A stretch of DNA of 64,000 nt from a virus: positions 1 to 64,000 of IMG/VR virus record IMGVR_UViG_3300044627_001244; one strand, written 5' to 3'. The position numbers were made by a program, and so were the translations under genes. Under the pieces are notes generated by a model, which had not been told where the DNA came from, ran no database searches, and saw only the letters and a list, made by a program, of their open reading frames with translations. Of this stretch, positions 44,380 to 48,573 are shown piece after piece (position 1 is the stretch's first letter; each line of letters opens with the position of its first letter).

Positions 44380-44988
44380 TTAGTATTTTAAAAAGTTTTC
44401 GCGGTGTCTTCGGTAAAATAACAGCCCTTGATTGAGATATGCAACTGTTGCACCTTTTGCAATCATTTGATTCCACATATTCCAATCTTCTTGTGTGTGC
44501 TGAGTATTGCCTAAACGCTTGTATCCAACTTCTTGTCCTAGTTTTGTTCTATACAACATAGAGCCATGATGCCCTTTACGTTGCCAATAGATATCACCTT
44601 GGTGATCTACAATTTCATTAGGATGTCTATTCCTAATTTCGTTTTTAAGTTCACCTGTTACTACGATATCATAAGTTATTATATCAGTTTTAGTGTTGGA
44701 AAGCAAGTCTATTGCATCAGACCTCAACCAATTATCTGCACCAAGAAACATGACATATTCCGATTTGACACGCATTAGCATGTCTTGGAAATTATTAACT
44801 GTACCGAGATTTTTATCTCGCAATATGAATTCTACCTCAGGATAAAGTTCTGGTAGATGAGAACAATCTCCTGCCGCATCGTCAACAAATAAAATTCGTT
44901 CAGGCTTCTTTGTCTGACTGAGAATTGATTCGATGCAATGTGACGCTAGGTGTCCATACTTGTATGAGCAAATTACAACAGTTATCAT
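44380..44988 (-). CDS. Glycosyltransferase family 2-like
   Basis: 202 residues. The N-terminus MITVVICSYKYGHLASHCIE, then SQTKKPERILFVDDAAGD, is the GT-A nucleotide-binding start; YVMFLGADNWL supplies the metal-binding acidic motif; QEDWNMWNQMIAKGATVAYL is the late acidic acceptor region. It should transfer a sugar from a nucleotide-sugar to a glycan or lipid-linked acceptor. The start overlaps the dioxygenase stop by 4 nt. Last member of a four-enzyme cassette. Confidence 0.87.
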   Translation of the reverse strand: MITVVICSYKYGHLASHCIESILSQTKKPERILFVDDAAGDCSHLPELYPEVEFILRDKNLGTVNNFQDMLMRVKSEYVMFLGADNWLRSDAIDLLSNTKTDIITYDIVVTGELKNEIRNRHPNEIVDHQGDIYWQRKGHHGSMLYRTKLGQEVGYKRLGNTQHTQEDWNMWNQMIAKGATVAYLNQGLLFYRRHRENFLKY

Positions 44989-45707
44989 GGGATTAATTTT
45001 GAATTCATGTGTTTAACAACTTCGCCGTTTATCAAGTAATCTGGATATGCGAGTGCAGACTTAGAACGGCAGAATCCGTTCATGTATGTCATACGATCCG
45101 CATTCGATTGATTCGGTTCACTACCATGAATGATTGTAACAGTCCAAATCAAAACAGAACCTTTTGGCGCGATATACTTTGTGCCTTCAAGTTCGCCGCG
45201 AGTAAAGGTACGTAGATTTCTTGGCGTAGGCCAGTATTCCCACTTGTGAGAACCTTCGATAAATTCTACTGCGCCATTGTCAAGGGTGATATCATCTACA
45301 GCAATGATTGTTTGAAAGTAATCATCAACAACATCATCTTTAAAGTTTCTTTCTTCACGAAACATTGTGTCACGGTGCCAAGCGAATTGATCATTGCTAC
45401 CGGCTTCTCTAAAATAAACTTGATTGTTGATTTGCTTTACATCATCACCAATGAATTCGCGAACAAGATTTACCATTCGAGAATCGGTGCGGATGTTATT
45501 CAGATAGTCATTTGCGAGTGCAGGAAAGAAAATAAGTTCTTTTTTTCCATACGACATTTCACTTGGCGAATAGCGATAACCAGCATCTTTGATTTGCTGA
45601 TCGGTTACAGAATATGCTTGTCGTTTAATTTCATCACATTCTTCTGTAGTAAAAACATTGGGTATGACAATGATACCTTTTTCTTCGTATTCTTTTTTTA
45701 AATCCAT
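44985..45707 (-). CDS. PhyH-like 2-oxoglutarate/Fe(II) dioxygenase
   Basis: 240 residues. N-terminal KGIIVIPNVFTTEECDEIKR is the PhyH opening. The iron ligands are visible as H-x-D in FAWHRDTM and the distal His in VTIIHGSEPNQS, with Arg about ten residues later for 2-oxoglutarate. NGAVEFIEGSHKWEYWP is also typical. Hydroxylates a small molecule or sugar; the glycan-enzyme neighbours suggest a surface-sugar substrate. Overlaps of 10 and 4 nt with neighbours indicate coupling. Confidence 0.87.
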   Translation of the reverse strand: MDLKKEYEEKGIIVIPNVFTTEECDEIKRQAYSVTDQQIKDAGYRYSPSEMSYGKKELIFFPALANDYLNNIRTDSRMVNLVREFIGDDVKQINNQVYFREAGSNDQFAWHRDTMFREERNFKDDVVDDYFQTIIAVDDITLDNGAVEFIEGSHKWEYWPTPRNLRTFTRGELEGTKYIAPKGSVLIWTVTIIHGSEPNQSNADRMTYMNGFCRSKSALAYPDYLINGEVVKHMNSKLIP

Positions 45708-46219
45708 GACACGTAGTTACGATGAATTTTAAATTGATAGTCAGGAACATTGATATTCAATGTTCCTTGTGTGACGCTATATGCTTTTTCATATCCTGCT
45801 TCTTTGACAATACGAACAACTCTTTCATTGAATGTTCCATAAGGATATGCAAAGTATTTGCATGGGAATGGTGAGGTAACTTCTCTGCGAATCTCTTCGT
45901 CTGAAAGATTACATAAGTCACGATGCGACCATGTGTGCCAACCAAGTTCAAAATCATACTTGCCGCAAAGTTCTTGCACCTGTTCAAGTGTGCAATACTT
46001 CTCTAGCGCGGGCACATGCGCTAGATCAAACGTATTATCTTTTCCCAAAAAGTCACCCATCACAAACATGATGCCAGACTTGTTGACTAGCACATCCTGA
46101 TTATCATATACGTTTTGATAGATGCCGTCAAATCCAATTGAATCATCACATGCGATAATTTGTTCTCGCGTATGATAGTTTGGATGTTTGTGAGTTCCAA
46201 TGTTGTGTGCTAATTTCAT
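45698..46219 (-). CDS. Polysaccharide deacetylase (NodB/CE4-like)
   Basis: 173 residues. Motif 1 appears as ACDDSIGFDG (first acid pair), motif 2 as GWHTWSHRDL (metal HxxxH), motif 3 as YFAYPYGTFNERV, and the terminal KIHRNYV supplies the late His. It should remove N-acetyl groups from a sugar polymer. The N-terminus is short, so a signal sequence is absent and the enzyme would act in the cytoplasm on precursors. Its start overlaps the methyltransferase stop by 4 nt. Confidence 0.84.
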   Translation of the reverse strand: MKLAHNIGTHKHPNYHTREQIIACDDSIGFDGIYQNVYDNQDVLVNKSGIMFVMGDFLGKDNTFDLAHVPALEKYCTLEQVQELCGKYDFELGWHTWSHRDLCNLSDEEIRREVTSPFPCKYFAYPYGTFNERVVRIVKEAGYEKAYSVTQGTLNINVPDYQFKIHRNYVSWI

Positions 46220-46737
46220 TCTAGTTCTATTTTCCTAAAACCATCTATTGGATTCTCGCCGAGATATTCATAGATTGTAACTTGTTGAACGTATTCTCTA
46301 TATGTAAATTCTTCTCGGTGCAAAATTTTACCATACTTGTATGGAAGCAACCAGTCTTTAATACCTGCAACTAAAATAATTCGTGCTGACGATTGCATGA
46401 TCCAATCATAAATTTTTTGATGATCATACTGTTGATACATTGTTCCAGTTGTCATTACCAAATCATATTTTCCGTCTGGTTCATGCACACGCTTTACGTT
46501 TGGTGGGAATCTAGATGCGGCTTGATCGGAAATTTCAATCCCGTGTAATGTAACGGCAGGCAAGAATTCAGTAACAAATCCTTCACCACATCCAATATCT
46601 AAAGCACGATCAAACGGACTATATGGTTTGAGAATTTCATACAGTTTATCTCTACGTTCGATATCATCCTTTGTTGTTTTGTATGCCCACGGATCAGGAT
46701 TCTTATACCAATGTTCAAGTTCTTGTTTACTCTGCAA
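46216..46737 (-). CDS. SAM-dependent methyltransferase (NodS-like layout)
   Basis: 173 residues from a TTG at 46737, chosen because AGGAG lies exactly 7 nt upstream; an earlier TTG at 46752 lacks one. The N-terminus NPDPWAYKTTKDDIERRDKL precedes the SAM motif RALDIGCGEGFVTEFLP; later YDLVMTTGTMYQQYDHQ and ARIILVAGI. DPW plus GCGEGFVTE recalls NodS-type N-methyltransferases acting on deacetylated chito-oligosaccharides, fitting the deacetylase next to it. The exact acceptor is unknown. Overlaps the upstream gene by 11 nt. Confidence 0.82.
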   Translation of the reverse strand: MQSKQELEHWYKNPDPWAYKTTKDDIERRDKLYEILKPYSPFDRALDIGCGEGFVTEFLPAVTLHGIEISDQAASRFPPNVKRVHEPDGKYDLVMTTGTMYQQYDHQKIYDWIMQSSARIILVAGIKDWLLPYKYGKILHREEFTYREYVQQVTIYEYLGENPIDGFRKIELE

Positions 46738-47155
46738 AATATTTCTCCTCAAGTCCTAAAAGAATACGCATTACATCTTCTTCTTTCATTGCAGTATTCT
46801 CTACAAGTTCTTCTAGCATTGAGAAGTCCCACGTATCTTCTGCAACATCATGCCATGCGTAAATACAAACTTCTTCCTTAGGTCTATGTATGAGACACCA
46901 AGGAGTCAAATCGTGTTCGGGAAAATCAAAATTTTCTGTGAGCGAATCTTTGTGAATAAAGATTGCGTAAGATTCTAGATTTTTATCATCTTGTTCGTCA
47001 GTTTCTTCGCTATAACCATAGCCATCAAAGATAATTTTCACTTCGGAAACATCAGAAATATTCTCACCAATTTCAAGACAATCAGGATCACGCCACATGG
47101 TGCTCAATAGATGCATCAAACAACGTTCATAGTCTTCGTAATTATAGTCACTCAT
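46727..47155 (-). CDS. Acidic protein of unknown function
   Basis: 142 residues, strongly acidic, beginning MSDYNYEDYERCLMHLLSTM and containing KIIFDGYGYSEETDEQDDKN and HVAEDTWDFSMLEELV-type segments. No family recognised. First gene of the glycan cassette and immediately downstream of the tmRNA gene; a ribosome site AAGGAT lies before the ATG. Conserved-looking composition but role unknown. Confidence 0.75.
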   Translation of the reverse strand: MSDYNYEDYERCLMHLLSTMWRDPDCLEIGENISDVSEVKIIFDGYGYSEETDEQDDKNLESYAIFIHKDSLTENFDFPEHDLTPWCLIHRPKEEVCIYAWHDVAEDTWDFSMLEELVENTAMKEEDVMRILLGLEEKYFAE

Positions 47156-47169
47156 ATTATATCCTTTGA

Positions 47170-47541
47170 ATTGGTGCTAGTTGATTCTGTTGCCAAGTTC
47201 AACTAGCAAAACTCCGGTCAGCGTTTAGGCTGCCAGTGCAAATCTTTCATCGTTTGCATTTACTTTGTTTTACTTTTAACGACTATCTGTGTCGAGTTGT
47301 CCACTTCGATACTCTTTACCCTGTCGAAACCAAGTGCATCCCCATCAGAAGAAAACTTATAATTCCTTTTCTTCACAAACTCATTGTATTCTTTTTCGGT
47401 AGATATCTGATAATCTTTATCATCATCTAACCATTTACCTATTTCTAACAATGATTTCATAAATTTTCTTTTGGTGGAGATGGGCGGAATCGAACCGCCG
47501 TCCAGAATACGTTTCTAGTTGCTTCATACAACCATAGCATC
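47170..47541 (-). ncRNA. ssrA: Circularly permuted (two-piece) tmRNA gene
   Basis: On the minus strand an acceptor piece comes first (about 47541-47472). It ends TTCGATTCCGCCCATCTCC-ACCA with T-arm GGCGG/CCGCC and encoded CCA. A 128-nt spacer follows, then a coding piece starting GGGGATGCACTTGGTTTCGA at 47343. GGGGATG pairs with CATCTCC to form a 7-bp acceptor stem (one G-U). The coding piece carries the tag ANDERFALAA (47257-47225) and stop TAA. AGAGTA near the 5' end can pair with TATTCT in the acceptor piece (helix 2). A 10-bp hairpin (47175-47208) ends the coding piece. Rescues stalled ribosomes and tags proteins for proteolysis. A consensus promoter directly precedes it. Confidence 0.9.
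47225..47257 (-). other. tmRNA proteolysis-tag reading frame
   Basis: GCA resume codon then codons for ANDERFALAA and TAA. The ALAA end is the ClpXP-type degron. The Ala resume codon follows the usual A-rich segment GTAAAT. The tag is the type I know from betaproteobacteria such as Bordetella. Confidence 0.9.
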
Positions 47542-47546
47542 TATTT

Positions 47547-47575
47547 ATTATACTTTTATTTTGCAAATCTGTCAA
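47547..47575 (-). promoter_or_regulatory. Sigma70-type promoter for tmRNA
   Basis: TTGACA (47570-47575), 17 nt, TATAAT (47547-47552), full consensus, with the -35 inside the end of the MazG-like gene and a predicted start near 47540, at the beginning of the acceptor piece. Confidence 0.85.
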
Positions 47576-47912
47576 GTTCAGGTGGGCGCCACCCTTCAGG
47601 TTTCATAACCTTACCGAGTTCATTTTTGATTACCTTCATTGTCTTACGATCAATCTTGTCTAGATTGCTTCGCGCAACTTCATGCCATGCTCCGTTCACA
47701 TCGAAACCTCGCATATGGCAATAACCAAGAATCACCCAAATCATGTCCATACACGCATCAAGTTCTTCTATTTTGTCTGCTTTCTTGTAGCCATCCATGA
47801 ATTCCCAAAACTCTTCAACAATCAACTTCTGATATAAATGTCGATTTGCTTCGGTGCGGTGTTGTTCACATGCGGCTATGAATGTGGCAACGTCAACATA
47901 CATGTTACTCAT
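47556..47912 (-). CDS. MazG-like nucleotide pyrophosphohydrolase
   Basis: 118 residues. KLIVEEFWEFMDGYKKADKI, then EELDACMDMIWVILGYCHMR, shows the ExxE...ExxD metal-binding helices of the all-alpha NTP pyrophosphohydrolase family. The ending GKVMKPEGWRPPELDRF is typical of the phage form. These enzymes hydrolyse NTPs/dNTPs or possibly alarmones. The start overlaps the nuclease gene by 8 nt. Confidence 0.85.
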   Translation of the reverse strand: MSNMYVDVATFIAACEQHRTEANRHLYQKLIVEEFWEFMDGYKKADKIEELDACMDMIWVILGYCHMRGFDVNGAWHEVARSNLDKIDRKTMKVIKNELGKVMKPEGWRPPELDRFAK

Positions 47913-48573
47913 CTTTTACCTCCTCATAGATTTCGCGATACTTAATAAACTCGCCAATGTATTCATCACGTTTTTTCACAAAGATTTGAGGTTCTTCGCT
48001 ATCAACGGCAATTACAATGACGATTCTAGGAACAGATACGCCTGTTCGTTCTTCATACATGACTGCATAAGCGGCACATTGCATGAAGTAATTGAGAATC
48101 CATTTTGCTTCTTTTGGTTTGCTTGCTGTCTTAAAATCGATGATGGATATCTTGCCATCAAATTCTGCAATACAGTCTACACGACCTGCAACTTTAAGAT
48201 GATTGGAATAAAGTGGAATTTCTAGCGCATGAATATTGTTTACATACTGATCTAGAATTGGCTGAATAGACTTAAACATAACAAGAGCATCAGGCATAGT
48301 ATTTCGTGCAAAGTCATCTTCATTGTTCAGATAATTTTCACAAAGTTTATGCACTCTGGTGCCCCGACCAGATGCTCTGGCAGACACTCGGTTTGCTTCT
48401 TCTTCACCGACACGCTTTCGCCACTCAAGAATTTTATCCTTGCCGTGTTGGGAAGTAATAGTGGTAACTGAGGGGTATAGTAACCCCTCAGGTGTTTTAT
48501 AAAATCTCTTGCCGTTTACTGTTACAGTCTCAAGATCATAGTCAATGTCGCAACCTACATGTTTGAAATTCAC
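47905..48573 (-). CDS. PD-(D/E)XK (RecB/Cas4-type) exonuclease
   Basis: 222 residues from a GTG at 48573 (AGGA 9 nt upstream). VSARASGRGTRVHKLCENYL is the early His motif; AGRVDCIAEFDGKISIIDFK, with Asp in GRVD and D-F-K, is the active site; YFMQCAAYAVMYEERTG is the trailing QxxxY motif. A DNA-end exonuclease used in recombination or degradation of host DNA is likely. Follows PhoH in the same direction. Confidence 0.85.
   Translation of the reverse strand: MNFKHVGCDIDYDLETVTVNGKRFYKTPEGLLYPSVTTITSQHGKDKILEWRKRVGEEEANRVSARASGRGTRVHKLCENYLNNEDDFARNTMPDALVMFKSIQPILDQYVNNIHALEIPLYSNHLKVAGRVDCIAEFDGKISIIDFKTASKPKEAKWILNYFMQCAAYAVMYEERTGVSVPRIVIVIAVDSEEPQIFVKKRDEYIGEFIKYREIYEEVKDE

Follow-up and report, generated by a model that had tools for sequence, protein, structure and literature searches.

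The locus lies in a 64,000-nucleotide stretch of DNA (hereafter the window) taken from an IMG/VR virus record of 64,505 bases. Genes for gp32, gp59, portal, tail sheath and baseplate proteins identify the window genome as that of a T4-like phage, as a preliminary description of the sequence had held. That description had also proposed a phage-borne, circularly permuted tmRNA with the tag ANDERFALAA, and every search that we ran for it agreed. ARAGORN reported a permuted tmRNA with this tag on the minus strand at 47134-47564, and two Rfam covariance models, of the kind suggested earlier as a check, matched over their full length and above cut-off: RF04321 (tmRNA_permuted) at 120.7 bits (E 5e-23; cut-off 47) and RF01850 (beta_tmRNA) at 113.8 bits (cut-off 84). 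Between the two tmRNA pieces lies an intervening sequence (IVS), and the parts of the locus are as follows.

47547-47575, minus strand: sigma-70 consensus promoter, TTGACA-17-TATAAT, a 12/12 match directly upstream of the acceptor piece
47472-47535, minus strand: acceptor piece (T-arm, acceptor 3' strand, discriminator A and encoded CCA), from RF04321 and RF01850; 5' end approximate
47476-47482, minus strand: 3' strand of the acceptor stem, CATCTCC, pairing with 47343-47337
47344-47471, minus strand: IVS, 128 nt, predicted to be removed in the mature tmRNA; parsed with the encoded CCA and GGGGATG as its limits, and set against the IVSs of other phages
47457-47470, minus strand: 5' arm of a predicted 14-bp helix extending the acceptor stem, with the purine-rich leader and AUG; from MFE folds of the precursor and of the IVS
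47344-47460, minus strand: candidate IVS gene, 39 codons, MKSLLEIGKWLDDDKDYQISTEKEYNEFVKKRNYKFSSD, with purifying selection in three diverged lineages and with IMG/VR relatives
47349-47362, minus strand: 3' arm of the predicted helix, made up of the IVS gene's final codons; from MFE folds and from end pairing across ORF groups
47337-47343, minus strand: 5' strand of the acceptor stem, GGGGATG, with the G3.U70 wobble; from the Rfam models
47167-47343, minus strand: mRNA-like (coding) piece, from RF01850; 3' end approximate
47260-47343, minus strand: 27 codons and a stop by which the ORF runs on into the mRNA-like piece, not conserved as protein in comparison with loci L439, L441 and L442
47225-47257, minus strand: tag frame ANDERFALAA (47257-47228) and stop TAA (47227-47225), from ARAGORN and the RF04321 alignment

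The acceptor piece lies upstream of the coding piece and its CCA is encoded. GGGGATG and CATCTCC rebuild the predicted 7-bp acceptor stem, with 47482-47476 pairing to 47343-47337 and the G3.U70 wobble included, and the anticipated borders are found as sequence positions, with the encoded CCA ending at 47472 and GGGGATG starting at 47343. G3.U70 is the alanine identity pair, typical of alanine acceptors. All seven acceptor pairs and G3.U70 were present in 299/299 phage cases matching our survey pattern, which itself partly fixes several of these pairs, G3.U70 included. Going by known tmRNA biology, the precursor would be cut by tRNA-processing enzymes, the two pieces would be charged with alanine, and the charged tmRNA would rescue stalled ribosomes by adding ANDERFALAA. 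The phage tmRNA could instead be a decaying, non-working copy of a host gene in which the IVS gene is the sole functional part. Decay would fit the mRNA-like piece of one relative, L013, which is disturbed and contains an insertion, but the window tmRNA scores well above both Rfam cut-offs with its stem, G3.U70, CCA and tag intact, and tags in the phages examined are mostly intact with hydrophobic C-terminal residues. We consider decay very improbable. ARAGORN reported unusually long tags of ~27-33 residues (for example, ANADTFDFSAMSFTGNTVSGKSKVALAA) for the tmRNA genes at L071, L256, L088, L483 and L488.

The consensus promoter ascribed to the gene was recovered in full at 47575-47547. Matches of this 12/12 grade occur in 2/312 phage tmRNAs, a rarity that argues against such a promoter being general among them. 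At the looser level of 10/12, upstream regions qualified in 16/312 phage tmRNAs compared with 10 in shuffles, leaving the consensus promoter unsupported as a general feature.

Surrounding genes place the tmRNA within a recognizable neighbourhood. In the window (47556-48573), a PD-(D/E)XK nuclease gene is followed by a MazG-like gene and then by the tmRNA; in Pelagibacter phage Mosig (L482), the nuclease gene is followed by one more gene and then the tmRNA. Because a PD-(D/E)XK nuclease gene lies upstream in both, the tmRNA looks to occupy a shared genome position. Downstream of the tmRNA, on the minus strand at 44380-46752, is a cluster encoding a family 2 glycosyltransferase, a PhyH-type dioxygenase and a methyltransferase-like protein. 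The fit of RF01850 to the window is in line with the betaproteobacterial host that had been hinted at, but phages recorded from Stenotrophomonas and Synechococcus match that model too, which leaves the hint weak. In Synechococcus phage BUCT-ZZ01, ARAGORN places a tRNA with the anticodon CUA (labelled Pyl; L001:4426-4501) near an unannotated permuted tmRNA, and this tRNA is possibly an amber suppressor.

We then considered the reading frame that crosses the IVS. The nominal ORF spans 66 codons (47460-47260, minus strand), of which codons 1-39 fill the IVS, the last of them, GAT, being its final three bases. We compared three lineages that share a 39-residue IVS protein: the window, L013 (on the same contig as L442) and L398 (on the same contig as L441). 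The window and L013 differ by 23 substitutions, 15 of them at third codon positions, and 30 of the 38 codons compared encode the same amino acid, against 22.7 expected from random placement of those substitutions (P 5e-5; dN 0.107, dS 2.2). Third positions similarly account for 14/22 and 15/20 substitutions in the other two lineage pairs, and dN/dS across the family is ~0.05-0.09. Each of the other five frames is closed in at least one of the family sequences compared. Likeness at the protein level stops at the IVS border, with the residues beyond it unrelated in L441 and L442 and wholly different between lineages, and the window differs from L439 by 1 substitution in 117 nt of the IVS part but by 8 in 84 nt of the run-on. 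Protein-level purifying selection is thus confined to the IVS, and the conserved gene is exactly the IVS part of the frame. The preliminary description had attributed all 66 codons to an artefact of the RNA; this holds for codons 40-66, whereas codons 1-39 evolve as protein.

Relatives of the window gene in IMG/VR keep its position. All nine lie in a tmRNA IVS with an ATG 11 nt after the CCA, as in the window. In the leader, which directly follows the CCA, relatives have AAAGGAAATTTATG, and L398 and L013 have AAAGGAAA. The window leader, AAAGAAAATTTATG, offers only a weak Shine-Dalgarno sequence, and its frame has no stop inside the IVS; both features count against a coding reading. Structure prediction returned a single helix for the window peptide (pLDDT 78). 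A Pfam search with the window peptide gave no match, nor did a search of the window for Rfam intron families, which together argue against insertion of a homing endonuclease or group I intron. At L010/L434 (IMGVR_UViG_3300042326_002049), the acceptor piece and IVS gene are as in the window, but the 3' half of the mRNA-like piece is another one, the tag is ANEDSFVAERLAA and the IVS frame is open through the tag; this looks like recombination within the tmRNA gene that swapped tags.

The IVS also appears to be strongly structured. MFE folding gave z values of -5.6 for the precursor and -3.5 for the IVS, and across 37 ORF groups the 5' and 3' ends of an IVS pair with each other at a mean of -13.5 kcal/mol compared with -6.9 for swapped partners. 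Every folded ORF group that has a Shine-Dalgarno core shows that core paired, at least in part. In the window, the start codon lies inside the predicted 14-bp helix, which would block initiation on the finished precursor and counts against a coding reading. We propose from this anatomy that the IVS gene would be translated from the precursor or from the released IVS. Given the pairing between the start region and the gene's final codons, ribosomes would most likely load while the RNA is still being made and the helix has yet to close, or once processing has opened the helix or freed the IVS. Strong end pairing is equally what an IVS of pure spacer RNA should show, were it conserved only for a helix that guides processing and crossed by an ORF through chance; the run-on at codons 40-66 agrees with such an accident, and the third-position substitution excess along the ORF does not.

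Surveying permuted tmRNAs in metagenomic contigs gave a broader measure of how often an IVS holds a frame. We used pattern scans that were tied to particular acceptor sequences and required no ORF, yielding IVSs of 40-163 nt. An ORF was counted if it had an ATG in the first 30 nt of the IVS and ran to the IVS end, with a 3'-end tolerance of 8 nt in one count and 16 nt in the other, applied alike to the data and to a null of dinucleotide shuffles that kept the ends. IVSs of 60-80 nt had an ORF in 23/92 cases against 21.3 expected; this lack of excess counts against a coding reading and suits an accidental frame. At 80-100 nt, ORFs were found in 27/75 (expected 9.7), at 100-132 nt in 24/65 (expected 4.4), and among distinct IVSs of 133-163 nt in 24/26 (expected 0.58). 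Border-to-border ATG ORFs therefore exceed chance, and the window has such a start; P values from these counts are optimistic because partly related IVSs were counted separately. Among IVSs of at least 80 nt, a Shine-Dalgarno core lies in the first 15 nt of 35/50 with an ORF compared with 4/90 without one. Neither the long-IVS counts nor this enrichment is expected of a chance ORF.

Proteins encoded by the survey ORFs sort into dozens of dissimilar groups. They include single-span membrane peptides of 22-27 residues (MDNEYSALVGFIVVIVVFALVLL and relatives), membrane peptides of 41 residues with an acidic tail, soluble proteins of 38-64 residues and a zinc-ribbon-like family of 30 residues with a CxxC/HxC motif, for which structure prediction had low confidence. 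All 35 zinc-ribbon loci in IMG/VR start 11 nt after the CCA, bringing the total with the window family to 44/44. Several IVS families, other long-IVS families among them, display synonymous bias on their own. The IVS protein at L088 matches phrog_13558 (E 1e-12), and 56 cultured-phage or GenBank records contain a homologue; in both clearly annotated records that we checked, Acidovorax phage ACP17 and Caudoviricetes isolate ct2os315, the homologue is free-standing. Apart from any substitution statistics, these free-standing homologues are evidence that real protein genes can reside in an IVS. Overall, the substitution comparison in the window family and the ORF count in long IVSs have already largely refuted an accidental frame, which we regard as highly unlikely. 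In Xanthomonas phage X1 (L478; OQ427096.1, 120380-121428), a homologue of the L088 zinc ribbon sits ~470 nt upstream of the phage's own permuted tmRNA, outside the IVS. For the window ORF, the zinc ribbon and the 41-aa and 64-aa IVS proteins, we found no convincing relatives in cultured phages.

An additional explanation is that the act of translation matters rather than its product, with ribosomes on the IVS delaying or pacing precursor cleavage. Ribosome-binding sites do fall within the processing helix in ORF groups with a Shine-Dalgarno core, and the slot is occupied by many unrelated peptides. Pacing alone, however, would not need the amino-acid conservation seen within families, and we consider it unlikely. 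We instead favour, with a probability of about 0.86 and on the strength of sequence comparisons, a beta-type permuted tmRNA gene in a T4-like phage whose spacer doubles as a gene for a small, presumably translated protein. More generally, the IVS would act as a compact cargo slot in which different phages keep different small proteins, such as single-pass membrane peptides, zinc ribbons and helical proteins.

IVS genes meet the tmRNA border in two main ways. Some close with a UGA stop that is separated from the border by a single base (UGA-U/GGG). Those of the window, the zinc ribbons and some further families instead run their final complete codon, GAU, right up to the border, and release of the IVS would leave them as non-stop messages. 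This GAU border suggests a testable link between the IVS gene and the tmRNA. Conceivably, the gene is wired to its host tmRNA, such that the product would be tagged and destroyed while the tmRNA is active and would accumulate only if rescue is saturated; we consider such a ribosome-rescue sensor, built by analogy on ArfA-like logic, doubtful.

We also asked where else the arrangement is found. In nine cultured phages with a permuted tmRNA (BUCT-ZZ01, Marzo, Rb1, BUCTxx99, X1, XacN1, QDWS359, whose parse is uncertain, DLP_6 and Mosig), the IVS held no gene, which counts against a coding reading. Scanning 84,980 bacterial and archaeal genomes with a leader pattern that needs RGGR, and so misses weak leaders like that of the window, returned three hits in Clostridia, none in a permuted tmRNA, suggesting that the arrangement is largely a phage trait. 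A Ruminococcus metagenome-assembled genome (L118; CADBTV010000075.1) carries two copies, ~200 nt apart, of the 3' end of a standard tmRNA together with the hairpin downstream of it, an arrangement that looks like the trace of an integrated element.

If the coding reading is true, environmental phages, T4-like and very large ones included, repeatedly house small-protein genes in the spacer of a classic non-coding RNA gene. Annotation that masks tmRNAs or treats the spacer as filler would then miss IVS proteins. The locus would offer a simple test of a structured precursor and a message that use the same bases, and of phage coupling between small-protein expression and ribosome rescue.

A permuted tmRNA in a T4-like phage had been singled out as notable, but the kind is already published. 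One study counts 53 two-piece tmRNAs among public phage genomes, with marine or aquatic samples the source of 50 (PMC9004378), and our own searches turned up permuted tmRNAs in phages of Stenotrophomonas, Xanthomonas, Pelagibacter and Synechococcus as well as in hundreds of IMG/VR contigs. The window tmRNA itself is a further member of these phage permuted tmRNAs; the novelty is the coding IVS, the very part dismissed as artefact, and we found no report of a protein-coding tmRNA spacer in the open-access literature. Like the window tmRNA, those of phage Melnitz and the other two-piece cases are phage-borne, circularly permuted and found in T4-like myophages; the accessible portion of the Melnitz paper places a glutamine riboswitch in the 3' domain and leaves spacer genes unmentioned (PMC9004378). 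Mosig shares the upstream nuclease gene, but its IVS is short and without a gene. Betaproteobacterial permuted tmRNAs (RF01850; merged model RF04321, PMC11915505) have the piece order, T-arm, acceptor stem and layout of resume site and tag seen in the window, whose 128-nt IVS differs in being coding. In the sections of that paper open to us, IVSs holding a tRNA gene and a repeat are described and a protein gene is unreported (PMC11915505). The same sections describe group I intron tmRNAs with a homing endonuclease gene, which likewise carry a protein gene in a removable part of the precursor; there, a self-splicing intron lies in the T-loop, whereas the window has a permutation spacer in which we saw no intron or endonuclease features (PMC11915505). 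In the smpB-ssrA overlap of Carsonella (PMC4131195), as in the window, a protein frame enters the tmRNA and RNA processing would leave a non-stop message. Carsonella, however, has smpB beside ssrA in a highly reduced endosymbiont genome, whereas the window carries an unrelated small protein inside a permuted tmRNA.
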